Both the position numbers and the translations under genes were made by a program. Shown in pieces: positions 19,740 to 63,008 of a stretch of 64,000 nt of DNA. The stretch's first letter is position 1; every line of letters begins with the position of its first letter. Location: positions 29,275 through 93,274 of IMG/VR virus record IMGVR_UViG_3300028772_000011. One strand, given 5' to 3'. Below the pieces are notes generated by a model, which was given only the letters and a program-made list of their open reading frames with translations, was not told the origin of the DNA and made no database searches. The DNA comes from a virus.

Positions 19740-22010
19740 TTATACTATTTCAAGAAATGAACCATCTGGTACAACCGCGGATACACTATCAAAATCTTCC
19801 CATATATTAGTATAATAATATCCTTGTTTTGCATTACCTTGTTTTAATTTACGACCCATCATTTCATTGGCCATTTCATCGCTACAAGGATCTTCGTATG
19901 TATTTGACATATCACCGATTATAACAACCTGAAAAATAGTTGGAACTGAATCAAATGGGATTAAATCTTTACTTGAAAAATAAACAGCTCTTTTCTTTCT
20001 TTGTTCTGGGTAATAATCATCATCTGGAACATCTTCTGTTGCATTAAAATTCATTATTGGGTCATACCCTATTATGTAATTCTTCCTTTCAAGTGTTTTT
20101 TTTCCAGCTAATAATGTTTTACCATATTCTCTTTTTCCATCCCATTCACCGACAGCTGGAACACCAATTTTTGCTTGTAATGCTTGTGTTGCAGCCATTT
20201 TTGTACCTATATGTATTCCACTTTTTCCGTTTAAAGATCTATCAGTAGTTCCGTGGTAAAACAAAGGGTGTCCATCTTTTAGTATAAGTTGTTCACGTAA
20301 GAAGTTTTTTTTTACTATATTTGATGTTTCTTCATTAATCACTAAACCTCTATCATCCAATTCTACAATATATAATTCATTTTCTTTTGCTAATGTTAAT
20401 ATATGATTTAATAATTTTTGTTTTGAATCATCAAATATACCATTCTCTGGAGATGGACCATAACACAATTTAAATTCGTGATTATTTAAAGGGGTTGATC
20501 CATTAACTTTATAAATATTTGGAAACCATTTAATAATATCTTTTTGTTTTTCCTTATCAAAATCAACTGATTGAGTACTAAAATTGATTTTATATATATT
20601 ACCACCATATATTAAACTACCATTTCTCCAGTCAACCAATTTAGAATTGATATTATTTTCTCTAATATTCCATTTTGCCTGACCATTTTTAATCATATCC
20701 TTATGATTCAAGCTTTCCTTATCACCGAATGCTGGCATATCAAACGCAATATCACCAATATTTCCCAAGGCGACTGCTTCATCGTTAATGATTCCACCAA
20801 GTTCATCGATTGAAAAATAACCATCTCTATCAACACCTAAATTGAAATCCTCAGCCTCAAAATATTCATCATCTTTATTATTATTATTATTTCCACCATT
20901 TAGCATACTATCAATAGAAGAAAAATCATTTTCTCTTTCAATTTGACGCTCTAAGCGATCTATAAACGACTTACCTTTTCTGGTACCAGCGAAAATTTCT
21001 TTTACTCTAACATTAAATTCATTTACTTCCAACGATATTAATTCAACGAATATTTCAGGTATCAGTTTTTTATTCTTAACACCATTAATAATTAAATCAT
21101 ATAATCCAACACCAAATCTTTTATCCCAGTTTTCAGCCAATAAAAAATCGGCCTTACCAATTACATATTCTGCATCTCGTATATTTTTTGGTAGTCCGTG
21201 AGAAGACATTAATTCCATCACACCTTTAATAGTTTCAAACACGAGTACTGGAAATATGATTGCCTCTGATACTATAGATGGTTCGGTAGATGACAAATTA
21301 ACTGAAACATACCCACCAAGGTTATTAGTTTCTGGTTTAATTTCCTTTACAAACGTTAGGTAATCATTTAACGCAATGATATTATAATATAATTCTGGTA
21401 GTTTAGGATTAAGTTCATAAATCTTGTTTAAAATAGTTGAGTAATCAGATGACAATCTCACAGACGCCCCTTGTATCAATGAATCTATTATTCGACGTTT
21501 ATATATTTCTTTTCCCAAATCATCCATTTCAGAAACCTCACCAAAATCCGTATCATCCAAAATAAGTGGTTCCAAATTCTGTTCCTTATCAGGTGTGATT
21601 ATATCCTTTAAAGAACACTCAATATCCAATTCACCAGGTTCTAAATTAAATTGTTCACAAACATATTCATAACATATTTTTTCAAGATCTTCACGTATGT
21701 TAATTTCAATTGATTTTGCTTTTGATATATATTCCGTTAACTTAGTAATTAAATAATTTTTATCATATTGTTCTAAGTCGTTTATTTTACCAACAGCTCT
21801 ACCAACTTCATTAAACCGTTTTAAAAGTAGTTTATATTCAAACGAACTCTCATCTCCTGGTGGGAAAGTAGGGTGATCACCTAACGAAGTCTTATGCTGT
21901 TTTATCGAATTACTTATGAATTTAGGTAAAGTAAGTTTATCCAACTGTTTTTCTTCAATTAGCTTCATTCTTAGTTCTTTCAATTGTGATTCCGTTATTA
22001 AAATATTCAT
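19740..22010 (-). CDS. putative packaged protein with ADP-ribosyltransferase-like C-terminus
   Basis: 756 aa. Residues 1-20 carry the shared late-gene peptide (ITESQLKELRMKLIEE) ending in an LIE site like those cut by gp21-type proteases. Residues ~150-330 form a helical domain. A low-complexity Asn linker (373-379) precedes a C-terminal domain with FYHGTTDR (584-591) and GIHIGT followed by A-T-x-A (598-610), then a KRAVYFS strand and a final YYYTNIWEDF. The HGT...GxHxGT...A pattern is typical of ART-fold toxins and tRNA-type ADP-ribosyltransferases. T4 Alt, an injected ART, also has a cleaved targeting peptide. The enzymatic role is an inference; catalytic Glu not assigned. Confidence 0.5.
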   Translation of the reverse strand: MNILITESQLKELRMKLIEEKQLDKLTLPKFISNSIKQHKTSLGDHPTFPPGDESSFEYKLLLKRFNEVGRAVGKINDLEQYDKNYLITKLTEYISKAKSIEINIREDLEKICYEYVCEQFNLEPGELDIECSLKDIITPDKEQNLEPLILDDTDFGEVSEMDDLGKEIYKRRIIDSLIQGASVRLSSDYSTILNKIYELNPKLPELYYNIIALNDYLTFVKEIKPETNNLGGYVSVNLSSTEPSIVSEAIIFPVLVFETIKGVMELMSSHGLPKNIRDAEYVIGKADFLLAENWDKRFGVGLYDLIINGVKNKKLIPEIFVELISLEVNEFNVRVKEIFAGTRKGKSFIDRLERQIERENDFSSIDSMLNGGNNNNNKDDEYFEAEDFNLGVDRDGYFSIDELGGIINDEAVALGNIGDIAFDMPAFGDKESLNHKDMIKNGQAKWNIRENNINSKLVDWRNGSLIYGGNIYKINFSTQSVDFDKEKQKDIIKWFPNIYKVNGSTPLNNHEFKLCYGPSPENGIFDDSKQKLLNHILTLAKENELYIVELDDRGLVINEETSNIVKKNFLREQLILKDGHPLFYHGTTDRSLNGKSGIHIGTKMAATQALQAKIGVPAVGEWDGKREYGKTLLAGKKTLERKNYIIGYDPIMNFNATEDVPDDDYYPEQRKKRAVYFSSKDLIPFDSVPTIFQVVIIGDMSNTYEDPCSDEMANEMMGRKLKQGNAKQGYYYTNIWEDFDSVSAVVPDGSFLEIV

Positions 22011-22012
22011 AA

Positions 22013-23302
22013 TTATTTTTTTGTTAACATTTCAATCAATTCATTTTTTGTAAATGATTTCCTATCATATTTTTTATTGTTCTTATGCGCTTTATCTTTT
22101 GATTTGAAACCAGGTCCTTTATCATCCATCTCCATCTCCCTATCAGCCTTTTTAATTGCCTTTACATAATCACCATTCTTATCGCGAACAGCTTTTGCTT
22201 CGACCATCATACCAATAATTTGATTCTTTGTCACAATTATTTTTGATTCATTTGTATTACCAATTTCAATCTTATCAGTGTCTTTATTATATAATGTTGA
22301 ATCATTTTGCAATTTAGCCGTCTTTGCTTGTAATTGAGGATCATTAGCATCTAATTCATAGGTTGATTCTTCAATTGGTTGTTCTTTAATCCTGTGTTTT
22401 GGGTTTATTTGGTCCGTATATATAAAAGGTTCATTATCTTCTTTAATTAATGTATTTGCTATTTTTTGAAGCATCTCTGTTAATTCTCCTTTAGTCAATT
22501 TCATTGTGTTTTCTTTTACTTTGTTGTTATTATTTTTTTCATCCCAAAACTTATATAATGCTTTTTGTAATCTATTTTTAACGTTATCCGATAAAAGATT
22601 GTACCCACTAAATGTTTGTTTAAAAGTTTTTAATATCTGGTCAAAACTTCCACCCATATATCTTTTTGTTGCGAATTCAGAAAATCTTGCCCAATATTCG
22701 TGTGGCAAGGTTAAATATATTTGACGTGTTTTATCATCCATCACCGCACCTGGACTAAGAGGCTTATAATTTAAATTTTTATAGTAGTTTTTTGATTTTT
22801 TGTCATTTGCATAATTACCATTACTTCTAAAATCATCATAAGCGTGTTGTAGTTCATGTATCAAGATATTACGAATAGCCGACCCAAGTGAAATTCGCAA
22901 TAATTGAGCTGCTTTTTCTACCGACCAGTCAGTTTTTAATTTATAAAATTCAACACCATAACCTATTTCAGCAACAAATTCATTAAAATTTTCAATTTTT
23001 AACCATATTTCCCCACCGCTTTTCTTACCGTTTGGTATAAATACACCTGAAGAACTAAAATTATTTATGAAACGTATATTAATATCAGTTTTATCAATAA
23101 AATCTTTTAATAATGGATATATTGATTTATCATAGATTATATCACATAAAAACCCATATTCAAAATTAAAATATTCCTCAGAATCCAAACCGTTTATTAT
23201 TCTTTTAATAAAATCCGTATTCTTATCTGCGAAAAATTGAACTATCTGAATGGATAATTTTTCTATCTCAGTTATTTCAGCGTATCCTTCTTTTAATTCC
23301 AT
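22013..23302 (-). CDS. HExxH metalloprotease-like protein with three shared peptides
   Basis: 429 aa. The N-terminal domain (1-250) holds the zinc protease motif HELQHAYD (149-156), with a later PHEYWARFSEFA helix (200-211) that could supply the third ligand or Glu, as in gluzincin-like and minigluzincin phage proteins. The second half contains three copies of the helix shared among late genes: LTKGELTEMLQKIANTLIKE (269-288), IIVTKNQIIGMMVEAK (355-370) and SFTKNELIEML (416-426). Met267 precedes the first copy exactly like an N-terminus, so an internal start at 22504 or a gene fusion is possible. Starts 2 nt from the ART-like gene's ATG region in the same operon. Confidence 0.55.
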   Translation of the reverse strand: MELKEGYAEITEIEKLSIQIVQFFADKNTDFIKRIINGLDSEEYFNFEYGFLCDIIYDKSIYPLLKDFIDKTDINIRFINNFSSSGVFIPNGKKSGGEIWLKIENFNEFVAEIGYGVEFYKLKTDWSVEKAAQLLRISLGSAIRNILIHELQHAYDDFRSNGNYANDKKSKNYYKNLNYKPLSPGAVMDDKTRQIYLTLPHEYWARFSEFATKRYMGGSFDQILKTFKQTFSGYNLLSDNVKNRLQKALYKFWDEKNNNNKVKENTMKLTKGELTEMLQKIANTLIKEDNEPFIYTDQINPKHRIKEQPIEESTYELDANDPQLQAKTAKLQNDSTLYNKDTDKIEIGNTNESKIIVTKNQIIGMMVEAKAVRDKNGDYVKAIKKADREMEMDDKGPGFKSKDKAHKNNKKYDRKSFTKNELIEMLTKK

Positions 23303-24117
23303 TTTTTACCTGTTTTAATATCAGATATTACACTAGGTCCAACCCCATACAACACAGCGATATCTTTTTGCTTCATCGTATGTGATTTTAATAGTTCCTT
23401 TATTTCCATTACTATTTCAGGTTTTAATTTAAAATGAAAGTTTCCAGAACTAAAATTCTTTTTTGAATTTATTTTATGAGTAACCCACTCAAGATTTTCC
23501 ACTCTATTATCTGTTTTAACATTGTTAATATGATTAACTTCGCAACCTTTTTTATATTCACAAAATGCCATTGCAACTAATCTATGTACACGAAGCGTTT
23601 TTCTGACTCCCTTATCATTATTTAATGCAATGAAACAATATTTATCACTCGATAGATTTTGTTTTAAAATAAATGAATCTACTTTCTTTATTCTACCTAA
23701 ATTAGAAACAAGGTATTTTTTAAAACCAATTATTTCTTTCCATTCCTCATCTTTTAAATCTTTAATTTCAATGTTTTTATAAATTTGCCTTGCTGAATTA
23801 CGATAATCTTGTTCAATTCTCGCTTGTTTTATATCCTCATATTCAACATTAATCTCCATAATAGGAATAAATCCATCAATATTAACATTAATTACATCAC
23901 CATAGTATTTAATGGTTTCAATATATGGCTGAGTAAATTGGTAATTAATAAATATAAAATTATCTCCGTTCCATTGTGCAACTCTTGTATTTCTACATGT
24001 TCCAGTATAATAAAATCCTTTTTTTAATTCACTTTTTAGTATCAAAATATGTAGGTTATAAATATATTTATTTTTATTAAATTTAGAATACAAAATCTTT
24101 CGAATCAGTTCCTTCAA
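23293..24117 (-). CDS. NUMOD4-HNH homing endonuclease fused to a phage domain
   Basis: 274 aa. Residues ~33-110 (KKGFYYTGTCRNTRVAQWNGDNF ... FIPIMEI) resemble a small phage protein family that otherwise occurs alone. Then NUMOD4 (EEWKEIIGFKKYLVSNLGRIK, about 126-146), HNH (RVHRLVAMAF, CEVNHINNVKTDNRVENLEWVT, about 176-213), and a C-terminal helix-turn-helix of the NUMOD type (MKQKDIAVLYGVGPSVISDI). Overlaps the metalloprotease gene by 10 nt and the upstream gene by 35 nt. It looks like an endonuclease that invaded or captured a resident gene. Confidence 0.8.
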   Translation of the reverse strand: MKELIRKILYSKFNKNKYIYNLHILILKSELKKGFYYTGTCRNTRVAQWNGDNFIFINYQFTQPYIETIKYYGDVINVNIDGFIPIMEINVEYEDIKQARIEQDYRNSARQIYKNIEIKDLKDEEWKEIIGFKKYLVSNLGRIKKVDSFILKQNLSSDKYCFIALNNDKGVRKTLRVHRLVAMAFCEYKKGCEVNHINNVKTDNRVENLEWVTHKINSKKNFSSGNFHFKLKPEIVMEIKELLKSHTMKQKDIAVLYGVGPSVISDIKTGKKWN

Positions 24118-24499: not shown

Positions 24500-24505
24500 A
24501 ATTTT

Positions 24506-24796
24506 TTACATCATTGGTCTTATTTGATCTTTTTCACTTGCTTTAATCGTGTTAATAATTTCATATCTAACTATGTTATTAAACTCTTTATCCAGCCTTT
24601 GTTTAATGAAGCTATCCATATTTTTAGCCGCATCATTCTCATCTTTAAACACAAGTGAAAACGATAAATCACATTCATCAAAACCAGCAAATAACACCCT
24701 AGTATGGATTTTATATGTAACCATTGACCAAGGGTCTGTGTATTCTAATATAACTTTTTTAATTACATTTTTTAGGTTGCTTTCGTTTAAAACCAT
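24506..24796 (-). CDS. small late protein with shared N-terminal peptide, 96 aa
   Basis: Residues 3-18 (LNESNLKNVIKKVILE) match the amphipathic helix found at the N-termini of other late genes, ending in ILE followed by Tyr-Thr. The rest is a small alpha/beta domain (ARVLFAGFDECDLSFSLVF-like strands). It is the first gene after the late promoter at 24811-24826. A candidate head-packaged protein. Confidence 0.55.
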   Translation of the reverse strand: MVLNESNLKNVIKKVILEYTDPWSMVTYKIHTRVLFAGFDECDLSFSLVFKDENDAAKNMDSFIKQRLDKEFNNIVRYEIINTIKASEKDQIRPMM

Positions 24797-24810
24797 ATGA
24801 TTGACATTTT

Positions 24811-24826: not shown

Positions 24827-24856
24827 TTCAAATAGACAAAAAAGTTAGTATTCAAC

Positions 24857-24887: not shown

Positions 24888-24914
24888 TGGAAACTAAATA
24901 AAAATTAAAAGAAA

Positions 24915-27069: not shown

Positions 27070-27912
27070 TCAAAAATTTACAAATTCTTCAACATTTTCA
27101 TTTAAATCTTCCAAAGAATTGATACGGAACTTATAATACCCATAATCTGAGGATATATCGTGTTCTTCATATGTAATGTCTGTTGTATCAAATAAATCCC
27201 AAATAAGAAACCCGTGCCCACTGTTAACCGTTTCACCAAAATTTTGTTGAATTAGCGAACCAGGTTGAACGATTTTAATTCCATTATAATCTTGTTCTTG
27301 ACGTAAATGTACATCTCCACATAATACAGCATCTGAACCATCAAACATTTCAAGACTTTTGCCGTGTTCAAACATAAATCCACTTTCATTTTTAAGTCCA
27401 ATTGTCATACCATGAAATAAGGATAGAAATATTTTATCTGAGTATTCTATTTTTTTTAATTTTATATCAATTGGTGTATGATTATCAAATACAGAAAATA
27501 AAGACCACATAATATTTTCATCTTCATAAAATCCACCTTTATAACCCAATTCCATATCTAAATATATAATATTAGGTAACTCAAGCATTTGAACAATAGG
27601 AGTTAGGCTATCTACGCGATCTTTATTATTTTCTAAAAAATCATGATTACCACTAATGATAATTGTTTTACATATTTTATCACACTCCCTAAGAAACCAA
27701 CTAAGTAGTTGATTCTGTTCATTTGACACGGTAATCTTAGAATGGACTAAATCTCCAACGATACAAATTCGAGTAGATTCTTTTCCGTTTTCATCAACAA
27801 TTTCTTTTGCTTGTTTTAAAAATTCTGTTATTACTTCCTTATATTCTTGGTGACGTTGAAAATTTCTAATATGTATATCAGCCAAATGAATTACCTTAGT
27901 TATTTTTTGCAT
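27070..27912 (-). CDS. recombination endonuclease subunit (gp47/SbcD-like)
   Basis: 280 aa calcineurin-like phosphoesterase: LADIHIRN near the start, GDLVHSK, SGNHD, LFHG and CGDVHLRQ supply the five metal-binding motifs of the Mre11/SbcD family. T4 gp47 acts with the gp46 ATPase (not in the window) to resect DNA ends for recombination-dependent replication. Shorter than T4 gp47 (339 aa). Its 5' end overlaps the 7-repeat nuclease gene by 17 nt. Confidence 0.85.
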   Translation of the reverse strand: MQKITKVIHLADIHIRNFQRHQEYKEVITEFLKQAKEIVDENGKESTRICIVGDLVHSKITVSNEQNQLLSWFLRECDKICKTIIISGNHDFLENNKDRVDSLTPIVQMLELPNIIYLDMELGYKGGFYEDENIMWSLFSVFDNHTPIDIKLKKIEYSDKIFLSLFHGMTIGLKNESGFMFEHGKSLEMFDGSDAVLCGDVHLRQEQDYNGIKIVQPGSLIQQNFGETVNSGHGFLIWDLFDTTDITYEEHDISSDYGYYKFRINSLEDLNENVEEFVNF

Positions 27913-29614
27913 TTTCTTTTAATTTTATTATATCGTTAATTTTATTAATTAATTCTTGTTCATCAATATATACTTTATCTATATAGTCAATTATATATTT
28001 TGGGTTTTCATATGTAAAATATAATAAATTGACATTATTCTTCTTACATAAATTATTTTTTCTAATATCTCTTTCTCTTACTTCTGAAAATCCTTTAGCT
28101 CCACCCCAACAATTATTTTCATCAAAATGTTGCCTTCCATGATATTCAATAGCTATATCATATTCTGTTAAATACATATCAATACTTTGAGCCCTTAACC
28201 ATTTATCTCTAAATTGGTATACTAAATTATAGTTTTGAAAATTATCTCTAATAATAGATAATAATTTTTGTTCAGATATATCATTTTTTGAAGCACACTC
28301 TGGACAATTAGATCCTCTCAAATGACTACTTGGTATTTGCCAGAATTCTCCGTGGATTTGGCATATAATACATATTTTAGTTGATGAGTTAACGTAATTT
28401 ACTTTTGAATAATCATATTTTTCCCAACGCGCATTTTTTAGCTTTTTAACGTATTCAGTAGTTTCCATTTTATTACACTCTGAACACCCACAGCCTTTAA
28501 GGTGAACTTCTGGTGTTTGTGTAAAATCTCCGTGTTTTAAGCAAGTTATTATAACAGTGGTGTGTCTGTCAACATATTCTACTTTTGAATAGTCATATTT
28601 ATTTCCATGAATCAATTTTGCTTTTGTTATAAATTTTTCATTTGTAAATCTTAAAGCATTTCCAACTATTTCACCTGCACATTTAGGGCAACCTCCACCT
28701 CGCAAATGGCTATTTGGTAGTTGCCAAAATTCACCATGAACTGGGCAAATAATATATACTTTTAAATTCCAATTAATATATTCTGTTTTTGAGTATATAT
28801 ATTTTTCACCATGAATTAATCTTGATTGTTCTATAAACTCATCACTTGTCTTACTATTTTTACATTTTATACACCCCAAGCCATCTAAATGTTTCTTAGG
28901 CTTCTGTTTAAAATCACCATGTATAGGACAATTGATTATTACTGGCGTTTTGTTGTCAACATATATTACTTTAGAATAATCATATTTATTTCCATATATT
29001 ATTTTGGATTTTAAAATGAATGATTCTGTTGTTAAAACCCCATTTGCGCATTTAGGGCAGCCATGTCCAAATGAATGATTTGCAGGTAATTGCCAAAATT
29101 CCCCATGTTCAGGACATATTATACAAATTTCAGTAGTTGAATTAATATATGTAACTTTTGAATAGTCATATTTATTATTATGTATTTTAATTGATTTTTC
29201 TATAAATTCATTAAAATTTAAAGCTAAAGAATTTGTTTTAGTACAATTAGGACATCCGAAACCCTTTAAATGGTCTTCTGGTTTTTGCAAAAACTCACCG
29301 TGTTCTGAACATATTATAATTACAGGGGTATTTTTATCTACATATTTAACCTTTGAATAATCATATTTATTTTTATGTATCTCATTAGCTTTATCCGAAA
29401 ACATTTCAGTAGTTGGTACATTGTGGCCGCATTTAGTACAATTATTACCGTTTAAATGATTGTTTGGTAATTGGTAAAATTCACCGTGTATTTTACATAT
29501 AATACAAACATGTTTTTTACTATTAACATAAACTACTTTTGAATAATCATATCTATCTCCATGAATCAGTATAGCTTTTTCGATAAATTCCTCTCTTGTT
29601 AATTTTTTAGGCAT
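27896..29614 (-). CDS. zinc-repeat nuclease with 7 tandem repeats
   Basis: 572 aa. Seven copies of a ~62-residue repeat cover residues 7-450: (E/D)xFIxKAxxIHGxKYDYSKVxY, then IxCxxHGxFxQxPxxHLxGxGCPxC. Each has the HG and two Cys pairs that could bind zinc. A Vsr-like nuclease domain follows (455-560): SIDMYLTEYDIAIEYHGRQHF, GGAKGF, and an RKNNLCKKNNVNLLYF helix-strand. Members elsewhere in the window have 2, 3 and 4 repeats. Probably a free-standing homing-type endonuclease that binds a long DNA site with its repeat array. Overlaps both neighbours (17 nt and 8 nt). Confidence 0.8.
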   Translation of the reverse strand: MPKKLTREEFIEKAILIHGDRYDYSKVVYVNSKKHVCIICKIHGEFYQLPNNHLNGNNCTKCGHNVPTTEMFSDKANEIHKNKYDYSKVKYVDKNTPVIIICSEHGEFLQKPEDHLKGFGCPNCTKTNSLALNFNEFIEKSIKIHNNKYDYSKVTYINSTTEICIICPEHGEFWQLPANHSFGHGCPKCANGVLTTESFILKSKIIYGNKYDYSKVIYVDNKTPVIINCPIHGDFKQKPKKHLDGLGCIKCKNSKTSDEFIEQSRLIHGEKYIYSKTEYINWNLKVYIICPVHGEFWQLPNSHLRGGGCPKCAGEIVGNALRFTNEKFITKAKLIHGNKYDYSKVEYVDRHTTVIITCLKHGDFTQTPEVHLKGCGCSECNKMETTEYVKKLKNARWEKYDYSKVNYVNSSTKICIICQIHGEFWQIPSSHLRGSNCPECASKNDISEQKLLSIIRDNFQNYNLVYQFRDKWLRAQSIDMYLTEYDIAIEYHGRQHFDENNCWGGAKGFSEVRERDIRKNNLCKKNNVNLLYFTYENPKYIIDYIDKVYIDEQELINKINDIIKLKENAKNN

Positions 29615-31518: not shown

Positions 31519-32643
31519 TTAATTTTGAGAAATATTTAATTCTTTATTTAATATTTCTTCTATATTATAAAATTCCGTATATGGGATTCTAATTAATTTA
31601 ATACCATTATCAAGACAATATTGTGTTTTAATTTCATCTCTTTTTTTATTAAGTATAAAAGATATTTCTCCTCCCCAATGATTAACTGGTTGAAAATGCT
31701 GTTTACCATCGAATTCTATACATATATTAAGCGATGGTATGTAAAAATCAAAAGGTAATGGTTTTATATTCTTGCATTCATTAAATCTATGTTGGTTGAT
31801 ATTAATAATATTTTTCTTATTTAATATTTTCATAATTAAGCTTTCGCCTTTACTTTCTATACAAATAGGACACCCTTTACCTTGTAAATGATTGGTAGGG
31901 CTACACGAAAATTGACCATGTTTTTTACAAATAATATTAACCTTTTTATGTGCAGTTTCATATTTCACTAACGAATAATCAAATTTATCACCATGAATAA
32001 GTTTTGCGCTTAAAATAAACTCATTAGTTGTTGGTTTAATTTTATTACTACATTTAGCACATCCATCGCCTCGTAAATGATGCTCAACAGTTTGCTTGAT
32101 AATATTACCACAATCCTTACAATAAAAAATAATATAATCGGTTAATTTAATAAAAACAACATCTGAATAATCAAATTTATTTTTATGTTTAATATTTGCC
32201 TTTTTTATAAATTCTTCTTTTGATAGATAATAATTTCCTAAACATTTTTTACAACCATTACCTTTAGATATTAATAATGATCCAGCTTGAACATAAAAAT
32301 TATTTCCACATTTTTTACATATTACGTTAACTTTTCCTTTATCGTTAATATAATTAATATTTGATAGGTCATAACTATCTCCGTGCTTTTTATATAACTC
32401 TAATAAATATTGCTCTTGCGTTTTTGTTCTTTTTAACGTACCCTTTTTTATACTGCATTTTGGGCATCCACTGCCTAATAAATGTGATCCAGCTTCTTGT
32501 TCAAAAAATTCTTTATGAATATTACAAAATATTTTTAATTTAGAGTGTCTTCCACTATATATTGTTTCAGAATAATTATATCTATCTCCGTGAATTAATC
32601 TTGCTTTAATTATAAATTCTTCTGTTGTAAGTTTTTTACTCAT
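31519..32643 (-). CDS. zinc-repeat nuclease with 4 repeats
   Basis: 374 aa. Four tandem zinc-knuckle repeats (7-245), more divergent from one another than those of the 7-repeat protein; two have CKKC/CKDC pairs in place of C-x-x-H. They are followed by a nuclease domain with DFYIPSLNICIEFDGKQHF (about 293-311), GGEISF and a final KLIRIPY strand. Free-standing and directly upstream of an early promoter. Likely a homing-type nuclease with its own DNA target. Confidence 0.75.
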   Translation of the reverse strand: MSKKLTTEEFIIKARLIHGDRYNYSETIYSGRHSKLKIFCNIHKEFFEQEAGSHLLGSGCPKCSIKKGTLKRTKTQEQYLLELYKKHGDSYDLSNINYINDKGKVNVICKKCGNNFYVQAGSLLISKGNGCKKCLGNYYLSKEEFIKKANIKHKNKFDYSDVVFIKLTDYIIFYCKDCGNIIKQTVEHHLRGDGCAKCSNKIKPTTNEFILSAKLIHGDKFDYSLVKYETAHKKVNIICKKHGQFSCSPTNHLQGKGCPICIESKGESLIMKILNKKNIININQHRFNECKNIKPLPFDFYIPSLNICIEFDGKQHFQPVNHWGGEISFILNKKRDEIKTQYCLDNGIKLIRIPYTEFYNIEEILNKELNISQN

Positions 32644-39957: not shown

Positions 39958-41577
39958 TTATTTTACTTTTTTTTTTAAATCCCTGATAATGCTTTCAGCC
40001 AATTTATCCATATAACCTTTGGTCTTTTCAATATCATCTTTTGGTTTCATTTCAGTTTTTGCATCCTTTGGTTCAGCAACCAATTCAGCTTCTGCTTTTT
40101 CTGGTGTAACCAATGTTCCATCTGCCTTAGGTTTTTGGATTGCATATTGCCTTGTTCCACCACCTGGCATTGTCATAGGTTCTTTACCAAATGAATCAAC
40201 TTTTCCAAATACATTCAAAATAGCCTCAGTCAATTCATCTTCATCTATTTCATACATTTTTTCTTCTTCGAAAGGCTGTGTTCCATCCAAATCAACTGAT
40301 TCAACATCATCTTCAAATCCAGCGTTGTCATTGTATTCTTGTGGTTCAATATCTAAATTGTCTTCATCATTACCATTTGGGTCTCTTGTTACTTCTTGGT
40401 AAATAGGATTACGATCTAAAATAACATAAAGATTATCCTCCAGATTTTCCAAATCAACTTTTGTATTATTTGTTGGGTCATATCTAAAACCCTTATCAGC
40501 CTTATAATCTTGTCGAATAGTACCAATCAGATCAATTAAATCTTCCATATAAAGATATTCATCATAATCAGCCATTCTATCTGGCATTTTATATACTTTA
40601 TCTTTAATCAAATTTAATGTTCTACTTACCTCTGGATTATTACTAGATAATTTATCAACATCAAATTTCATTTTACGAGTGTTGATATCCTGGCCTTCAG
40701 TTACAACTTCGGCTTTGGTTCCTGGTGTTAAATCAGCTTGGTGAGCTACTGGTGGTACTGCTGGCGCATTTGGGTCTACTGGTGGTTTAGCTGGTGTTAC
40801 AATTGCTGGAACAACAGGTGTAGTTGATGTGGTTGTAGAAACTGCTTGAATAGCTTCCTCGGCCAATTTAGCTTTAACATTTTTCAATTGAAGTCCAGTA
40901 ATTTTAAATTTCTTACCTGCTTTCGAAGGATCGGCTTCCATATCTGGTTTAACTTCATCATTGAAAGGAATTCCGACCTTAGTTGGTTCCACATTTCCCT
41001 TACTTGGTACTTCAGTTCCTTTTGGTTCAGTTACTTTATCGGTAAATGGTTCGGCTTTTTTATCAGCATCTGTAGATGTAATCTTCAAAACTGGTTTATA
41101 TCCAAGGTCTTCTTTCAATATACCAGATGTTTTGAACATGATCTCACGTTGACGAGCAAGTTCTTTACTCATTTCAACGCGTTCTTCTGCTATAATTGTT
41201 TCTTTTGTATCTGGATTAAATGAATCAACAATGCGACCTTTCTGATTTTTAGCTTCGTTAATTGAACGCAATTTAAACTCAAGGTTTTTAACAGCCAAAG
41301 CATACGAATTATTTTCACACATTGATTTATATCCAATTCCACCAACATAGTCGAAATCTTGTTTCAATGGATTTTCCGTTTTTCCAGAAACTTTAATATA
41401 GTATTTATTGCTTTCACGTACAATACCATAGCATTTACCGTCAGCTGCTATTTTTTTATACTCAACGATTTCAGATGAATAGTTTTTATTGTCAGATTCA
41501 GCAAATACACTGAAATTCATTAATCGTTTCATCTCATTTAACTTATTATCAAATGAATTATCGGTGGTTTTAGCCAT
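39958..41577 (-). CDS. late protein, 539 aa, putative virion/prohead component
   Basis: N-terminal helix LNEMKRLMNFSVFAES (13-28) resembles the short head-targeting-type helices of other late genes. A beta domain (30-100) precedes an Ala/Pro/Thr-rich linker (245-290), an acidic stretch near 405-445 (DEDNLDIEPQEYNDNAGFEDD) and a lysine-rich C-terminus. No enzymatic motif. First gene of the 38.9-41.6 kb late unit behind the late promoter at 41600-41614; may extend by frameshift into the next gene. Confidence 0.55.
   Translation of the reverse strand: MAKTTDNSFDNKLNEMKRLMNFSVFAESDNKNYSSEIVEYKKIAADGKCYGIVRESNKYYIKVSGKTENPLKQDFDYVGGIGYKSMCENNSYALAVKNLEFKLRSINEAKNQKGRIVDSFNPDTKETIIAEERVEMSKELARQREIMFKTSGILKEDLGYKPVLKITSTDADKKAEPFTDKVTEPKGTEVPSKGNVEPTKVGIPFNDEVKPDMEADPSKAGKKFKITGLQLKNVKAKLAEEAIQAVSTTTSTTPVVPAIVTPAKPPVDPNAPAVPPVAHQADLTPGTKAEVVTEGQDINTRKMKFDVDKLSSNNPEVSRTLNLIKDKVYKMPDRMADYDEYLYMEDLIDLIGTIRQDYKADKGFRYDPTNNTKVDLENLEDNLYVILDRNPIYQEVTRDPNGNDEDNLDIEPQEYNDNAGFEDDVESVDLDGTQPFEEEKMYEIDEDELTEAILNVFGKVDSFGKEPMTMPGGGTRQYAIQKPKADGTLVTPEKAEAELVAEPKDAKTEMKPKDDIEKTKGYMDKLAESIIRDLKKKVK
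39967..39976 (-). other. A10 slippery run, candidate -1 frameshift site
   Basis: On the minus strand the end of the 539-aa gene reads TT-A-AAA-AAA-AAA-GTA-AAA-TAA. A-AAA-AAA is a classic -1 slippery heptamer in the right phase. The -1 frame leads without a stop into the 337-aa frame. Confidence 0.45.
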
Positions 41578-41655: not shown

Positions 41656-43737
41656 TCATTTAATTGAATTAATTTTATCGTAGGTCACAAGTTTCAAATC
41701 AATTAATTTTTCGAAGTATCCATTACGTCTTAAAACTTTAAAAACTATATTACCTATTGAGAGTTCACCATCTTCAGATTCCAATCCTTGTTTCCTTAGT
41801 TTCTTGATTTTATCGTAAAGTTTTTTTGTTTTATTCGATATTACTGTAAGCTCAGTGAAATTAGGTTTTGATTTATAATCTTTTAATAAATTTTCAATGC
41901 TTGTCATAATAGTTGAGGCCTTTTCTTTAATTTTTTTCTTATCAAAATCAGCATCATTTATTATTTCTGGTTTACTTAACCATTTATTTTTTTCCAATGA
42001 AAATTGACCAACAGATGCGTTTTCTTGTTTTATATCCTGTACATACAACTCAATAGGAAATCCAAATATCTTTAGATTTTCATGATCTTCGTTCCATAAT
42101 CTTCTCTTTGAATCAAAATACTCTGTAACTAATTCAATATTTTTATTTATTTTACTAAAATCTACAATCAAATGTAAATCAACATCTGAATAGCTTGACC
42201 AATTGAAATTAGCCATACTTCCAAGGAAAACTATGTCATTAACCTTTTTAATATCAATTGTTAAGTATTCAATAAAATCATCCGCTATTTTAAGTAAACG
42301 TTTCCTTACGATTGGTTTTAACTTACCAGATTCATCCCAAAACTTAGTATTTAATTCTTTTTTAGGTTTAAAAGAACTAAGATTTACGTCTTCAATTGTT
42401 GCTTCGGTTAATTTATTGTTATTAATTTGTTTACAATAATCCCAAACAGATGGTGATATAATTATTTCTGACTTATTATGATTACTATTTGTCCATATCA
42501 TATTATTAGTTGTTGTAATATTTTTAGTTAAATCTAACAATCCACCCCTACTATTTACAACCCTCAAAAAAAACCTATCACCGTTTTTAATCAAACTATT
42601 AATTACACCTCTATCTTTAAAATTGTATATTCGTTTACCATCCCTACGACCACCATAAGAACCATAAAGACCTATAGTTTTACCAACTAAATATTCACAA
42701 TCAATATTTTCTGGATTATTTCCTATTCTTAATTCGACTTCTTCAATTTTTTTTGGAATCCTAAACGTTGCGGCTTTTTTGCCATTAATAGTAGGCATAC
42801 CAAAATCATCCTCGCCAATAGTCTTTATAACAACTTTCTTATTTTTAAACTTACCCATCATTATAGTATCACCAACTTTAACTGGTAATTTAATTTCCTC
42901 TTCCAGATGTTTATTGATTTCATTTAATTGTTCTTTTGTAATCAATATTGTTTTTCCTTCTCCCATTCCATAACGTTTATAATGATTATATTCAGCCTGA
43001 GTTACATTCCCCAACTTATCTCCGATATTTTTATATTTTGCATCTAAAGAGGCTTTCATTTGTGGTGTTTTCATTTTCTCAGCGGATGATAATGTGTGAA
43101 TATTTTGCATTTCACTTGCTGATGAATCATTTGACCCCATGAAATTCTTTACAGGGATTAAATTTCCAATTTTACTATTGGTTTCCCATTCGTAATCTGG
43201 TTCATAGTCCTCATCATCAGCATCTAAATCGGCCTGATACTCATTTGTCTTAATTTCAATCCTATAATTCGAGAAATCTACTTTCAAGCCATAAATGTGC
43301 TCAATTTCAGTTGAAAGTTCTTTTAATAGACTTGGCATTTTATTTTTATCTGGATACTGCCAAAATGATATAACTTTACTATTAGTCCACAATCTTCCAG
43401 GGTGTTCAAAACTACTCCTATCCGATCCAATTCCATTATCACCATATAATACACCATAAAAGTCAGATATACCACGATGCATTTGCATCTTTTCAACAGA
43501 TTTCCAGGCCGTATGATCAATTTCATATTTTTTATCCTGAGATATCTTATTTGACTCAAAAAATAATGTATTATTATATCCAACAAAAGCTCTCCCATTT
43601 AAGAAACCAAAAGCTATCGCATCATCATTTGACCAATGAGCTATCAGATCATCATAACTATTCAATACTTTATCTGGGCTCTCATTTAAATGATTCCTAA
43701 CCTCTTCTAATTGAGCTTTTGTTATTTTAATATTCAT
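41656..43737 (-). CDS. putative packaged protein with nucleotidyltransferase domain, 693 aa
   Basis: Two copies of the late-gene peptide: residues 3-19 (IKITKAQLEEVRNHLNE) and 264-280 (ILITKEQLNEINKHLEE), each starting a module. Residues 20-200 form one domain, 285-440 a beta-rich domain, and 480-600 a Pol-beta-type nucleotidyltransferase: FLGSMANFNWSSYSDVDLHL (505-523, metal Asp 518 and 520). A helical end follows. The order suggests two separate cargo genes fused into one. Could add a nucleotide to tRNA or to a host protein after injection (inferred). Confidence 0.6.
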   Translation of the reverse strand: MNIKITKAQLEEVRNHLNESPDKVLNSYDDLIAHWSNDDAIAFGFLNGRAFVGYNNTLFFESNKISQDKKYEIDHTAWKSVEKMQMHRGISDFYGVLYGDNGIGSDRSSFEHPGRLWTNSKVISFWQYPDKNKMPSLLKELSTEIEHIYGLKVDFSNYRIEIKTNEYQADLDADDEDYEPDYEWETNSKIGNLIPVKNFMGSNDSSASEMQNIHTLSSAEKMKTPQMKASLDAKYKNIGDKLGNVTQAEYNHYKRYGMGEGKTILITKEQLNEINKHLEEEIKLPVKVGDTIMMGKFKNKKVVIKTIGEDDFGMPTINGKKAATFRIPKKIEEVELRIGNNPENIDCEYLVGKTIGLYGSYGGRRDGKRIYNFKDRGVINSLIKNGDRFFLRVVNSRGGLLDLTKNITTTNNMIWTNSNHNKSEIIISPSVWDYCKQINNNKLTEATIEDVNLSSFKPKKELNTKFWDESGKLKPIVRKRLLKIADDFIEYLTIDIKKVNDIVFLGSMANFNWSSYSDVDLHLIVDFSKINKNIELVTEYFDSKRRLWNEDHENLKIFGFPIELYVQDIKQENASVGQFSLEKNKWLSKPEIINDADFDKKKIKEKASTIMTSIENLLKDYKSKPNFTELTVISNKTKKLYDKIKKLRKQGLESEDGELSIGNIVFKVLRRNGYFEKLIDLKLVTYDKINSIK

Positions 43738-48076: not shown

Positions 48077-48115
48077 TTTTTCATGTATTTATATATAAAA
48101 TAAATACATGAAAAA
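48077..48115 (+). promoter_or_regulatory. 15-bp hairpin over start codon with internal late promoter
   Basis: TTTTTCATGTATTTA (48077-48091) and TAAATACATGAAAAA (48101-48115) pair perfectly with a 9-nt loop. The ATG of the nuclease gene (48108-48110) is inside the right arm. The late-type motif GTATTTATATATAAAATAA (48085-48103) lies within the hairpin. A long early transcript would hide the start codon; a transcript starting within the hairpin would not. T4 uses this design for I-TevI and gene e. Confidence 0.65.
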
Positions 48116-49034
48116 GTTAACTAATGAAGAATTTATTAATAAATGCCAAGCAATTTACGATAATTATGATTATTCTAAAACGTTATATGATGGGTGCGGG
48201 AAAAAAGTAATAATTATTTGTGAAGAGCACGGAGAATTCGAACAAACACCAACTCACCTATTGAGTGGTCACGGTTGTCAAAAATGTGGTATAGCGAGAA
48301 GAGGATTAATTAGGAGTTCTAATACTACTGAATTTATTGACAAAGCTATTAAAGTTCATGATAATAAATACACATATGAAAAATCAATTTATAAAACCTC
48401 AAATTCAAAAATTATTATAACATGTCAAGATCACGGATATTTCACTCAAACCCCATCTAGCCATTTGAAAGGAAGATGTTGCCCTAAATGTTCAAAGCAA
48501 TCATATAAAGATACTAAAGAGAGTTTTATTGAAAAAGCAAAATTAGTTCACGGAGATAGATACGATTATAGTAATGTGGTGTATATAAACTGTTTTACTA
48601 AAATAGATATTATTTGTAAAAAACACGGGGTTTTTAATCAAACCCCAATTGATCATTTACAAAGATGTGGTTGCAAGCAATGTAAAGAAAGTAAATTAGA
48701 AACAGAAGTCCGAAATATATTAAAAACTAACGAAATAAGTTTTAAATACGATGTAAGAAATGTAGATTGGCTAAAGCCATTGACTCTTGATTTTTATATT
48801 GAAAATAAAAAAATAGGCATTGAATGTCAAGGAGAACAACATTTTAGATCAATAAAATATTTTGGTGGTGATGTTGATTTTGAGAAAAGAGTTATAAATG
48901 ATAATTTAAAAAGTAAATTATGTTTTGAAAATGGAATAAAATTATTATATTATAGTAATCACGAATATAACGATACAATAATAACAGATATTAACTACTT
49001 GATAGATGAAATTAATAATTCACCAACATTATAA
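48108..49034 (+). CDS. zinc-repeat nuclease with 3 repeats
   Basis: 308 aa. Three tandem zinc-knuckle repeats (4-188), each with the FIxKA...YDYS...CxxHGxFxQTP...CxxC layout, then a nuclease domain with LTLDFYIENKKIGIECQGEQHF (about 225-246), FGGDVDF and KLLYYSNH. The domain order and catalytic residues match the 2-, 4- and 7-repeat members on the minus strand. Its start codon is held in a hairpin that includes a late promoter. Free-standing after the helicase gene, with no obvious link to it. Confidence 0.8.
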   Translation: MKKLTNEEFINKCQAIYDNYDYSKTLYDGCGKKVIIICEEHGEFEQTPTHLLSGHGCQKCGIARRGLIRSSNTTEFIDKAIKVHDNKYTYEKSIYKTSNSKIIITCQDHGYFTQTPSSHLKGRCCPKCSKQSYKDTKESFIEKAKLVHGDRYDYSNVVYINCFTKIDIICKKHGVFNQTPIDHLQRCGCKQCKESKLETEVRNILKTNEISFKYDVRNVDWLKPLTLDFYIENKKIGIECQGEQHFRSIKYFGGDVDFEKRVINDNLKSKLCFENGIKLLYYSNHEYNDTIITDINYLIDEINNSPTL

Positions 49035-57983: not shown

Positions 57984-57985
57984 GT

Positions 57986-58186: not shown

Positions 58187-58187
58187 T

Positions 58188-58745: not shown

Positions 58746-58749
58746 GATA

Positions 58750-59209: not shown

Positions 59210-59210
59210 G

Positions 59211-59591: not shown

Positions 59592-59596
59592 ATTAT

Positions 59597-59836
59597 ATGC
59601 TTGATAGAATAATAGAATGTTATGATGATGAAGAACTTTTAGCCCCATGCGGTTTTGATGATGCTGTCATTGGTATTGACGAGAATTCAATGAGATTAAT
59701 ATATTCCGTATCAAAGTGTGTTAAAATATTAATGAAAGACATGAACTATGAAGATGCACTTGAACATTTTAGTAACAACATTAGTGGTGGTTATGTCGGT
59801 GAAAAAACACCTATTTGGTGTGAAGACATTTTTTAA
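59597..59836 (+). CDS. hypothetical protein, 79 aa
   Basis: Small acidic alpha/beta protein with a YEDALEHFSNNISGGYVGEKTPI end that is seen in other phage hypotheticals. Not recognised further. Confidence 0.5.
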   Translation: MLDRIIECYDDEELLAPCGFDDAVIGIDENSMRLIYSVSKCVKILMKDMNYEDALEHFSNNISGGYVGEKTPIWCEDIF

Positions 59837-59860
59837 ATAAAAAACTAAAAAACTAAAAAT

Positions 59861-60583
59861 ATGAGAACATTCAAATTAATAGAAGAATATTATGGCTCAC
59901 CAGTATTGGGTACAGTTATTAGAGAAGATACAAACTATCAATTGGTTTCAGAACAAGTTGAAATATTCCAAATGTATAAGGTATTAAAGTATCCAAAACA
60001 TTGGAAAGAATTTGCCGAAGTTGATTATACAGGTGTTAAATTTAAGTGTAATAATAGTGATATCATATATGATATTATTGAAAAAACATTTAATGTGTAC
60101 ACTATAACGTGGGAAAATGAAACAGTACAAGAAAAATTTAAAATATTCAATGTAAACGAATGTTTCGAAAGTGGCGAATGGACTAAAATAGATGAAACCC
60201 CAAAATATTTTGTTGATATTGATCCAGCAACTGGTATAGATAGTGATTTTGTCACGTTCAGACTTTTATTCGGTAAAATGGAACAAATATTTCCAGATAA
60301 AAAACCAGGATTTGAATTATTAAGTTATATAGTTGAAAAACCAAAAATGAATGGTCCAATCACTGGAAAATTTGAAGAAATTAAGATTTATAAAATCAAA
60401 AGGTTATCAGATAATCAATTTTTTAAAATTGGTGATAAAATAAAATTACCTATTGGGGATACTGTATATGAAATAACAAAATTTAATTATAAACTAACGA
60501 AATATGAAGAATTAATGGTTGGTCTTGGTGATAATATTTGTGAGGTTGCATTATCAAACCTATCAAACCTAATAAAAATATGA
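59861..60583 (+). CDS. hypothetical protein, 240 aa, LSDNxxFxIG family
   Basis: The C-terminal part contains KRLSDNQFFKIGDKIKL (around 179-195), the element also present in the 54800-55882 protein, so the two are distant paralogues. N-terminal half is beta-rich and aromatic. Overlaps the next gene by 4 nt. Role unknown. Confidence 0.55.
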   Translation: MRTFKLIEEYYGSPVLGTVIREDTNYQLVSEQVEIFQMYKVLKYPKHWKEFAEVDYTGVKFKCNNSDIIYDIIEKTFNVYTITWENETVQEKFKIFNVNECFESGEWTKIDETPKYFVDIDPATGIDSDFVTFRLLFGKMEQIFPDKKPGFELLSYIVEKPKMNGPITGKFEEIKIYKIKRLSDNQFFKIGDKIKLPIGDTVYEITKFNYKLTKYEELMVGLGDNICEVALSNLSNLIKI

Positions 60584-61032
60584 AAAACTTTTACATGAAC
60601 GTAGGTGATCTACTAAAAAAATTAAAAGGAATGGATATTCCAGATGATGTCCCTGTGGTTTATCAACGAATTGAAGATAGATATTTTGATGGTAATGATA
60701 TCAGTGGAATGCGCGGGTCAGCATCAAGTGGAGCAATTGATGGGGTATTCCCTCCAGGAACAAAATCAAAAGGTTGGGATACAGTAAAGATTAAAGGTGA
60801 TTTATATTATCAAATGGTTCACCATAACGAACAATTAGACAGAGGTAAACTTGTCAATGAAGGTAAATTAGACGAAGATGAGGTTGGTAGATACTATTGG
60901 TCAGATGAATATAAAGATGTTCGAGAATATTATGATCTTAATGATGAAAAATTACTTGATGAATATGTTGGAGTGTTTGATTGTTTCTATGACGAAGAAA
61001 AAAACGTACTTTGTATAACAGCACATTATTAG
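60580..61032 (+). CDS. hypothetical protein, 150 aa
   Basis: Opens with VGDLLKKLKGMDIPDDVPVVY, the same start as the 70-aa protein at 49619 and many phage proteins. The acidic C-terminus is rich in Tyr/Glu. Translated with the preceding gene. Confidence 0.55.
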   Translation: MKNFYMNVGDLLKKLKGMDIPDDVPVVYQRIEDRYFDGNDISGMRGSASSGAIDGVFPPGTKSKGWDTVKIKGDLYYQMVHHNEQLDRGKLVNEGKLDEDEVGRYYWSDEYKDVREYYDLNDEKLLDEYVGVFDCFYDEEKNVLCITAHY

Positions 61033-61035
61033 ACT

Positions 61036-61419
61036 ATGATTAATAATATATTAAAATGCTGGAATCACATTCCATATACGATTAAACATTATATTGCCTT
61101 TTTAAAACTCCAAAAGAAATTACTTGGTTATTCCAAATATAAATTTCATGACTTGGATAAAATATTTATGTATATATTAATTCCGTTTATTGGTACTAAA
61201 AGAATAAAAAAAATCCATAAAGCTATTAATAGACACCATATTATTGATACAAAGCGTAGAAGTTGTAACTACGAGGAAGCAATTATTGATTGGGAATGTT
61301 CTCGATCAACAAAACCAGATAAACCATATACGGCCAGAGACGTTGCAAATTTTCCCAAATTTAAAAATACAAAACATTATCCTGAGTTAATTAAACAACT
61401 TAATAAGTTTAATCTTTAA
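61036..61419 (+). CDS. HD-like protein (DUF5662-like), 127 aa
   Basis: Contains KFHDLDKIFMYILIP (around 36-50) and INRHHII (around 68-74): a conserved H-D ... H-H pattern of a small phage family of unknown role, distantly like HD phosphohydrolases. Metal binding is plausible. Ends before a late promoter. Confidence 0.5.
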   Translation: MINNILKCWNHIPYTIKHYIAFLKLQKKLLGYSKYKFHDLDKIFMYILIPFIGTKRIKKIHKAINRHHIIDTKRRSCNYEEAIIDWECSRSTKPDKPYTARDVANFPKFKNTKHYPELIKQLNKFNL

Positions 61420-61488
61420 TAATAAAAGATAAGTGTGAATATTGTAACTTATAATAAAAAATACTTTAAAATTATTAAAATTATTATT

Positions 61489-61505
61489 GTATTTATATAA
61501 AAACA
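61489..61505 (+). promoter_or_regulatory. late-type promoter motif
   Basis: GTATTTATATAAAAAC, 7 nt upstream of the ATG at 61512; the TTAAAA part is reduced to AAAA. Confidence 0.5.
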
Positions 61506-61511
61506 AATATC

Positions 61512-61904
61512 ATGATTATATTAATAATACTTTCTATCTTATTAGCGTTGCTTTCTGGTATAGCTAAAGCAGTTTGTGATACATCATCGATAAATGGCTC
61601 GAGTGATAAACTTTCTTCTTTAAAACAAAGCTATTGGCGTAAATCAATTAGCTCTGTAAACAAGTGGAAAAATAACGACCCAAAACAAGGTGAAAAATTC
61701 TGGGGTAGTTCCACTGTTTTAGTATCACTAACAGACGCTTGGCATTTATTTGATGTCATACGAGATTTTAGTTTTATATTCTGTGGAATAACCTTGGTTT
61801 TTATATTTAATGTTAATGGTATATCTCTTTGGTATATATTATTACTTTATCCAATAAAACAATCGATATTTGAAATATTTTATCGCTGGCTTAGAAAGCC
61901 ATAA
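61512..61904 (+). CDS. membrane protein, 130 aa
   Basis: Three membrane segments (IILIILSILLALLSGIAK at the start; FSFIFCGITLVFIFNV; SLWYILLLYPI) and a basic loop with WxKxxS elements. Sits alone behind a late-type promoter and ahead of a terminator. Late membrane proteins with this size can be holins, but the sequence does not prove it. Confidence 0.55.
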   Translation: MIILIILSILLALLSGIAKAVCDTSSINGSSDKLSSLKQSYWRKSISSVNKWKNNDPKQGEKFWGSSTVLVSLTDAWHLFDVIRDFSFIFCGITLVFIFNVNGISLWYILLLYPIKQSIFEIFYRWLRKP

Positions 61905-61907
61905 AAA

Positions 61908-61948
61908 GGAAAACCCATCAGGTAGCGATACTCGATGGGTTTATTTTT
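61908..61948 (+). terminator. rho-independent terminator
   Basis: AAACCCATC (61911-61919) pairs with GATGGGTTT (61934-61942), followed by a T-rich tail. Confidence 0.85.
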
Positions 61949-61984
61949 CGCCGAAACGAAACAACGGTCCTAAACGTTATGATT

Positions 61985-62650
61985 CTACCTATTTGGAAAA
62001 GTTTCTTTTTTATTTGCTGTTCTGGAAAGATTCTGTAAAAATTTTGCTAATTTTTGACCCTTATCACCCAATTTACCCTGTTGAAGAGCATTCATGACTT
62101 CTGAAATACCAGCACTTGCTAAGAAAACACCAACGGTACCAGCAGCAACAGGTATTAATTCTTCAAAACCCTCATTAATAGTAGATTCATCTATATCAGG
62201 ATTAACATTAGAATATTTATCCTTGTTTTTAATAGCCTTTTTGAACATTCTACTAATCAATTGTAATGTAGGTATGCCATCATATTCCATATCACGGCTT
62301 CTAATTATATCAACATTTGGTTTACCTTGGTTGGAATGAGGTGAATAACTAACAATTTTCAAAGCACCATTTCTATAAATAATTGGATCATAAGTATATG
62401 GTTCTTCCCAAGTACTATTAGGTTCAATTACACCAATTTTATCGCCATCTGAATCGACCGCCTGGGCTATTAATTCATTAATTTGATTTACATATTTTTC
62501 AATTTTTGGGATATTACGAGCAACACCTTCTTTTATTTGATTTTTCGAAATAGTTATTTTTTTTGATTCACCCAATAGAATCGTTTGGTTTTCTATAGTT
62601 TCACTTACCATAGAACGTAATACGCTTTCTTTAACCTTTATTTTTGTCAT
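61985..62650 (-). CDS. late protein with shared peptides, 221 aa
   Basis: Two copies of the late-gene helix: residues 3-20 (KIKVKESVLRSMVSETIE) and about 31-46 (KITISKNQIKEGVARN). A helical part (50-130) and a small apolar stretch (EELIPVAAGTVGVFLASAG, about 168-186) follow, with a basic end. Probably head-packaged or capsid-linked. In a two-gene late unit with the gene at 62673. Confidence 0.55.
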   Translation of the reverse strand: MTKIKVKESVLRSMVSETIENQTILLGESKKITISKNQIKEGVARNIPKIEKYVNQINELIAQAVDSDGDKIGVIEPNSTWEEPYTYDPIIYRNGALKIVSYSPHSNQGKPNVDIIRSRDMEYDGIPTLQLISRMFKKAIKNKDKYSNVNPDIDESTINEGFEELIPVAAGTVGVFLASAGISEVMNALQQGKLGDKGQKLAKFLQNLSRTANKKETFPNR

Positions 62651-62672
62651 TTTATATTTATTTTAATTGTAT

Positions 62673-63008
62673 TTATGATATATAAAAATTTAATTCGTAA
62701 TTATTCCCCCTACCAAAATTTAACCCCATATTATATACTTGTATACTGAGAGTTTTTCGAGTTAATTTTTCATCTTTCCACAATCCAATATTTGCTTTTG
62801 TAGTTTGACCATCCCTTGGTTTACCCTGACCAACATTAATCTGATTAAACCAATCATCTTCATCCACCACATAACCTTTGGATTCAGCTATTGACCTTGC
62901 ATATTGGACCGCACCTGAAAATGTAGACCAATATACGTTTTCAGACACGGCTTCTTTTATGAATTTTTTAATTAAAGTTTTTAATTTAATAGTATCTTGA
63001 TCGTTCAT
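62673..63008 (-). CDS. late conserved protein, 111 aa
   Basis: Residues 6-23 (IKLKTLIKKFIKEAVSEN) form the shared N-terminal helix with an acidic end. The rest, VYWSTFSGAVQYARSIAE ... YVVDEDDWFNQINVGQGKP ... LSIQVYNMG ... YELNFYI, is a recognisable conserved family in marine and Bacteroidota phages, of unknown function. First gene behind a late promoter. Confidence 0.6.
   Translation of the reverse strand: MNDQDTIKLKTLIKKFIKEAVSENVYWSTFSGAVQYARSIAESKGYVVDEDDWFNQINVGQGKPRDGQTTKANIGLWKDEKLTRKTLSIQVYNMGLNFGRGNNYELNFYIS

Follow-up and report, generated by a model that had tools for sequence, protein, structure and literature searches.

A short helix ending in (L/I/V)xE as a candidate capsid-targeting leader on many unrelated proteins of large uncultured phages

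The 64,000-nucleotide window analyzed here comprises bases 29275-93274 of the 93,274-base virus contig IMGVR_UViG_3300028772_000011; negative positions denote contig sequence outside the window, and genes are named by their left coordinate. On its minus strand lies a T4-like head block made up of 24506, 24083, 22013, 19740, the protease 18402, the scaffold 14411 and the capsid gene 12559, and the terminase and portal genes are on the contig outside the window. Our subject is a short helix ending in (L/I/V)xE that recurs in proteins of this phage, and that the initial annotation proposed to be a capsid-targeting peptide cut by a gp21-type protease. The capsid protein is at best about 36-38% identical to those of GenBank phages, so we found no close cultured relative there. 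The protease that the proposal requires is encoded, with a Peptidase_S77 profile score of 77.8 bits against a curated cut-off of 27. The head features that the argument leans on are these (an arrow marks a predicted cut or junction):

18402..19124, minus strand: gp21-type prohead protease (Peptidase_S77; Pfam PF03420 E 1e-21, phrog_207 E 6.5e-35)
12559..14364, minus strand: T4 gp23-like major capsid protein (phrog_138 E 9.6e-64)
nt 14182, minus strand: predicted capsid cut IMKE↓TTDS after residue 61, aligned with the T4 gp23 site and 97 other capsid proteins
14411..15712, minus strand: scaffold in the gp22 position, assigned from gene order and from homologues beside capsid and protease genes in relatives
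19740..22010, minus strand: leader protein adjoining the protease; 26 orthologues aligned; no Pfam match

About 13 helix copies are found on the 93-kb contig, three of which lie beyond the window. All of the proteins originally named as carriers (19740, 24506, 41656, 61985, 62673, 22013 and 16559) are encoded as open reading frames (ORFs) and contain it. Copies that had been missed are one in 39958 (residues 222-240), N-terminal ones in -7644 and -23917, the latter gene standing two genes past the portal, and a C-terminal one in -7320. The copies in the window are as follows:

21951..22010, minus strand: N-terminal leader MNILITESQLKELRMKLIEE of 19740; its E20 hardly varies among the orthologues, whose leaders are unrelated; modelled helix 7-21
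24743..24796, minus strand: N-terminal leader MVLNESNLKNVIKKVILE of 24506; an exact promoter-like 16-mer lies 14 bp upstream of the gene
43681..43737, minus strand: N-terminal leader MNIKITKAQLEEVRNHLNE of 41656; leave-one-out score 25.5; promoter-like 16-mer upstream
42895..42954, minus strand: internal copy KTILITKEQLNEINKHLEEE of 41656, followed by the GDT(I/V)MMGKFKNK module
40858..40914, minus strand: internal copy KKFKITGLQLKNVKAKLAE in 39958, one of those missed at first
22439..22507, minus strand: copy 1 in 22013, TMKLTKGELTEMLQKIANTLIKE↓D
22199..22246, minus strand: copy 2 in 22013, SKIIVTKNQIIGMMVE↓A
22016..22066, minus strand: copy 3 in 22013, at the extreme C-terminus, with no LxE after it
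62600..62650, minus strand: N-terminal leader MTKIKVKESVLRSMVSE of 61985
62528..62563, minus strand: second copy KKITISKNQIKE of 61985, past LLGE↓S
62952..63008, minus strand: N-terminal leader MNDQDTIKLKTLIKKFIKE↓A of 62673, limited to the helix half; the gene has a promoter-like 16-mer 8 bp ahead of it
16919..16966, minus strand: internal copy NIKSLIENVVRRVINE↓D in 16559

The consensus first given for the helix strictly fits only the copy in 19740 and both copies in 41656, while those in 24506, 61985, 62673 and 16559 are looser and have in common mainly a helix and the final (L/I/V)xE. That ending is present in most copies, but no LxE follows the third copy of 22013 or those in -7644 and -7320. 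The seed alignment of 13 copies was made by hand; in leave-one-out scoring 9/13 score at least 14.9, and shuffled proteomes yield 1.6 matches per proteome at the laxer threshold of 9.

As an independent test set we used 104 related loci (1.5 Mb) from protease and capsid searches of IMG/VR, all of them sequences unused in defining the motif. A profile built from the window copies was expected to recover the motif elsewhere, and it did: at a score of at least 12, the window-trained matrix gave 48 matches (32 N-terminal) against 8 (2 N-terminal) in shuffled proteins. The iterated model gave 77 matches in 45 loci, 53 of them N-terminal, with none in shuffled proteins and nearly none in T4, RM378, SPO1, phi14:2, crAss001 and Alsa_3. 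The common form of the leader in relatives is MKK(I/V)(K/R)LTESDLxxIV(xxSV)KRVLxE. Two jumbo relatives, G006 (334 kb) and G016 (348 kb), have 28 and 19 copies with none in shuffled proteins, and 39 of these 47 stand at the N-termini of otherwise unrelated proteins. A 26-residue leader heads 23 proteins in G006, where the leaders are 66.5% identical on average, and 16 in G016; the model built on it finds 5-16 copies in each of nine more motif contigs. When the same leader was searched by tblastn, no GenBank phage matched, and the candidate cultured test case, Flavobacterium phage immuto, has weak motif copies only and no proteome paper that we could find.

We believe, with a probability of roughly 0.85, that the helix serves as a capsid-targeting sequence, working as the T4 one does but forming a new sequence family. 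The mechanism we propose is modelled on T4 (PMC9026906, PMC5694885). The leader, (K)x(I)xLT(E/K)SxLxxIVxx(xxxV)xxLxE, would begin as a short strand and continue as a capped amphipathic helix. At the N-terminus it would dock its protein in the core of the prohead, and the presumed docking partner is the gp22-like scaffold 14411, which has several (L/I/V/M)xE sites inside. The protease 18402 would then presumably cut at the end of the peptide, behind the Glu of (L/I/V)xE, leaving a freed cargo that would stay in the head and pass with the DNA into the host. The same site would part the modules of fused cargos such as 41656.

The end of the leader is sharply defined. Among 73 unique copies, 27 have the Glu of (L/I/V/M/F)xE at column 19 and 24 have it at column 23, against a background of 2.7% per position for sites of this type, and the two leader forms differ by four residues, or about one helical turn. 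In the jumbo leaders each column holds about 2 bits of information as far as this Glu, and about 0.3 past it. The leader therefore ends, in a fixed Glu register, at the gp21 site (L/I)xE that is also found in the capsid protein: at the position aligned to the T4 gp23 cut, (L/I/V/M)xE is present in 98/98 capsid proteins with a readable N-terminus and is followed mostly by A, S or T. The T4 gp23 propeptide is 65 residues long (PMC9026906).

Protein 19740 shows that leaders are exchanged at this site. Its residues from about 28 to 390 are a conserved head-region protein, and the leaders of its orthologues are unrelated in both sequence and length, whereas the Glu that opens the conserved part (E20) is nearly invariant, with (L/I/V/M)xE at this site in 24/26 orthologues by manual count. 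Examples of the junction are MKEKYIQHLINKVINE↓APVDYG, MAKYRTIKE↓APIDYEG, ...KLMTE↓SRITYED and MKTIYITEEQKKVLTE↓NILLDK. In the RYMFFSNLEQ... family, the same body is found behind a long leader, MKRVIKLKESDLTEIIKRVLSE, or a short one, MDKLDRIIKKVIRE. In the AlphaFold model of 19740, residues 7-21 form a helix, confidence dips at 20-22, and a domain is folded from about residue 30 on. Residues from about 400 to 756 are a window-specific extension, absent in all 25 aligned orthologues and without a family match, and are possibly an added cargo domain. We dropped a motif-based candidate ADP-ribosyltransferase in this C-terminal part, which had no Pfam match, no confident model and no fold match for the model.

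These observations bear on the most durable alternative, that the helix is a docking tag for some other structure (the membrane, the portal, the tail or a cytoplasmic compartment) and is left uncut by the prohead protease. The C-terminal copies and the few without LxE do indicate that the helix can exist without a cut site, and the cargos have no recognizable function (Pfam and PHROGs searches of the jumbo cargos were almost empty). However, conservation stops exactly at the Glu of a protease-type site, and that site survives the replacement of leaders and never varies in the capsid protein, so we consider this explanation unlikely. It is more improbable still that the carriers are one diverged family whose N-terminus happens to be the best kept part: some carriers are true paralogues or orthologues, but the bodies behind the leaders in G006 and G016 include only 1 weakly similar pair of 595, and similar bodies are found with different leaders or none.

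At the DNA level, the G006 leaders are 68.5% identical and the next 78 nt only 30.5%, and codon sharing at identical residues exceeds expectation (0.54 vs 0.39), as might be seen if the shared stretch were a DNA or RNA element (a recombination, promoter-proximal or translation signal) that is translated by chance. Identity at the three codon positions is 0.79, 0.76 and 0.51, and since positions 1 and 2 are far better kept than position 3, selection acts on the protein. The 60 nt upstream reach only 0.39, the window version has the protein pattern and not the DNA in common, and the raised codon sharing fits recent duplication, which together make such an element highly improbable. Finally, that common amphipathic helices were picked out by eye, a concern given how frequent LxE is and the manual seed alignment, is already contradicted by the shuffled and control searches described above (32 N-terminal matches against 2, 47 against 0 in the two jumbo phages, and nearly empty controls without the system).

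Carriers had also been placed behind late-type promoters on the minus strand, which is true only in part. The T4 late promoter TATAAATA shows no enrichment over a reversed control, and we took the 16-mer TATTTATATTAAAATA instead. Six exact copies of it lie in the window, every one on the minus strand; the scaffold gene is preceded by two, and 24506, 39958, 41656 and 62673 by one each:

15735..15750, minus strand: promoter-like element TATTTATATTAAAATA before the scaffold gene, with more exact copies at 15846, 24810, 41599, 43750 and 63016

With up to two mismatches there are 11 matches against 3.2 expected, a number reached in 0/100 shuffles, and four of the five first genes behind the element are leader carriers (p 2e-4). 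The carriers 22013, 19740 and 61985 are not directly preceded by an element of their own; instead they sit downstream of such starts. In the jumbo relatives, the 70 bases ahead of carrier genes are enriched in TATTTATA (p 0.007 in G006 and 9e-5 in G016).

The proposal of a gp21-cut capsid-targeting leader is thus supported by N-terminal enrichment, the sharp end at Glu, identity with the capsid site, leader exchange, unrelated bodies, selection at the protein level and a promoter element shared with the scaffold. Several points weigh against it. Packaging and cleavage are predicted from sequence, and three copies in the window phage lack a following LxE. With the jumbo model of 26 residues, no copy is found in the window contig at E<=0.1, the copies there being divergent. 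The leader models find no T4 head protein at threshold and the T4 peptide is not detectably similar; the one N-terminal T4 match is just above threshold, in a 64-aa T4 ORF. With no sequence match to the peptides of the T4 internal proteins (IP) or Alt, our claim is that the leader works like them, not that it is homologous. Peptidase_S77 is detected in 10/12 motif contigs longer than 150 kb (17/34 with fragments), counts that have no proper background rate for comparison, our attempted baseline for large contigs by way of an unrelated gene having returned one locus only; it was not detectable in a 317-kb contig with 12 copies. Lastly, isolated leader genes occur in bacterial chromosomes, with 1-2 copies and no Peptidase_S77 in each of the 8 genomes examined.

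Those of the chromosomal genes that we examined lie mostly inside transposons. In bacterial genomes we found the leader at 26 loci, mostly in Prevotella and rumen Bacteroidales, and at several of them the leader gene is convergent to an IS1595-type transposase (DDE_Tnp_IS1595, PF12762, E 5.8e-45). In L357, L358, L374 and L375, terminal inverted repeats (GGCAATAACATAGAAGTTGACCCAA) and 8-bp target duplications enclose the leader gene, as in an IS1595/ISXO2 transposon with a leader passenger. Inverted repeats with duplications also surround a leader gene in the viral contigs L252, where no transposase zinc ribbon was detected, and L276, and G006 has repeats with no clear duplication. The elements are 1.6-2.7 kb long with terminal inverted repeats, and most have an IS1595-type transposase and 8-bp duplications:

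L357:5101-7633, L358:5041-7779, L374:4923-7559 and L375:5410-7048: Prevotella/Bacteroidales transposons
L252:7881-9792, L276:4874-7572 and L348:15253-17914: transposons in phage contigs

The C-terminal half of the L358 passenger is 80% identical to a phage protein; from this likeness and the location in transposons, we infer that the isolated host copies are mobile passengers of phage origin. This suggests that transposons make use of the leader label. We offer more tentatively, as an idea we would not yet bet on, that the leader is a portable prohead label of a large uncultured phage group which IS1595-type transposons exploit as they move between phages and Prevotella chromosomes, a labelled passenger riding in the virion and entering the next host with the transposon. 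One further locus, L370, comes from a metagenome-assembled genome labelled Alphaproteobacteria UBA3650; its contig, which carries genes for a leader protein, an orthologue of 19740 and a terminase-like protein, is phage sequence binned with bacteria.

The internal copies had been suggested to mark cut points in polyprotein-like cargos, and this finds support in 41656, where modules begin right past LxE, but not in the C-terminal copies. The internal copy of 41656 is followed by a small module (LPVKVGDTIMMGKFKNK...) also present in long proteins of T4-like marine phages, where its counterpart usually stands directly behind (L/I/V)xE, between other domains. A second junction precedes a nucleotidyltransferase module, whose stand-alone homologues start about at the KLTE↓A junction:

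42403..42444, minus strand: second predicted junction ...NNKLTE↓ATIED of 41656, before the nucleotidyltransferase module (phrog_36119 E 1.2e-40)

Module boundaries in 41656 thus coincide with (L/I/V)xE, and the modules are found alone or recombined elsewhere. The DUF6267 module likewise occurs in three contexts: by itself with no leader in front (S-PM2, S-WAM1), behind a short leader resembling that of T4 (MMLDFKNFITE, MYNDLLVE, LINFSKYITE or MMKFTQFLAE), and in a polyprotein past LLTE. These contexts, together with those of 41656, fit modules being swapped as post-cleavage units, and they support the polyprotein reading of 41656, with the cutting itself predicted. The copies in 22013 and those at C-termini do not clearly fit cut points and may be docking helices only. 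In marine T4-like phages (L235-L239, L006-L019), DUF6267 and cytidylyltransferase-like proteins have short MxxFxxFxxE leaders or are LxE-jointed polyproteins, and they are probably packaged cargos in cyanophages and pelagiphages too.

Further N-termini of the window phage have other patterns and also end in (L/F)xE, namely KMFEMFGKLNSDFKIKLNE, KLFENMKMLNPDFTLNE, MNILLEIYNKIFLTE and ...FSVFAE. They are possibly more leader types of the same phage:

Window -22970..-22305, -22295..-21930, -6458..-5664 and 39958-41577: genes with other-pattern N-termini
41497..41577, minus strand: N-terminus of 39958, ending ...FSVFAE↓S, with a predicted cut; homologues end VNE or LNE

In several jumbo relatives Peptidase_S77 is matched as two separated stretches in one frame of 380-609 aa, which suggests an insertion in the protease. 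Separately, endonuclease-like genes, several with the repeat KLTxEEFIxKAxxIHGDKYDYSKV, break up the head operon and other regions of the window:

G006:222089-222991, G015:125480-127138, G016:265878-267536, G018:30848-31858 and G021:386439-387356: split Peptidase_S77 frames
Window 17560-18366, 23293-24117, 27896-29614, 31519-32643 and 48108-49034: endonuclease-like genes

The leader is a label that can be read from sequence, is carried by over 20 unrelated proteins of a single phage and is spread over a large clade, of which the collection searched has no close cultured member. From it one can list the proteins that jumbo phages without a cultured representative probably deliver into bacteria of the gut and rumen, a list otherwise unavailable for uncultured phages, and the leader model predicts their exact mature N-termini. 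The exchange of leaders before conserved bodies and the leader-carrying transposons suggest a route by which phages gain new cargos. We found no description of the motif in the open papers that our search covered.

Among known systems, encapsulin cargo-loading peptides are short tags that load varied cargos into a shell, as we propose here, but they are usually C-terminal and are not removed by a protease. The cytidylyltransferase-like, GDTVMMGKF and DUF6267 proteins of marine T4-like phages are similar in that modules start directly behind (L/I/V)xE; their leaders differ, being of the short MxxFxxFxxE type of T4 and not the ITES helix. The closest likeness is to IPI, IPII, IPIII and Alt of T4, which share a short N-terminal peptide on several unrelated internal proteins, an (L/I)xE end and the gp21 protease; Alt is also cut at LxE near its C-terminus. 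Few T4 internal proteins are known to use the targeting peptide. In contrast to T4, the leader described here has another sequence, 18-26 residues compared to about 10, a capped helix and up to 28 copies per genome, some of them inside fused proteins. The T4 capsid-targeting sequence has an L/I-X-E end and varied cargos (PMC9026906), and Alt is cut at ITE-6 and LTE-619 (PMC5694885). Head and ejection proteins of phiKZ and SPN3US also have N-termini cut by a prohead protease on many packaged proteins, a feature predicted here from sequence, and in phages of this type the paralogues gp53 and gp54 have an identical 15-residue N-terminus (PMC5694885, PMC10052503). Their propeptides differ in being mostly long (>100 residues), family-specific and cut past A/SxE by a protease of family S80, not S77. 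The way of working that we propose is thus the one known from T4, and what would be new here is the sequence family, its scale, its predictive use and the link to transposons.

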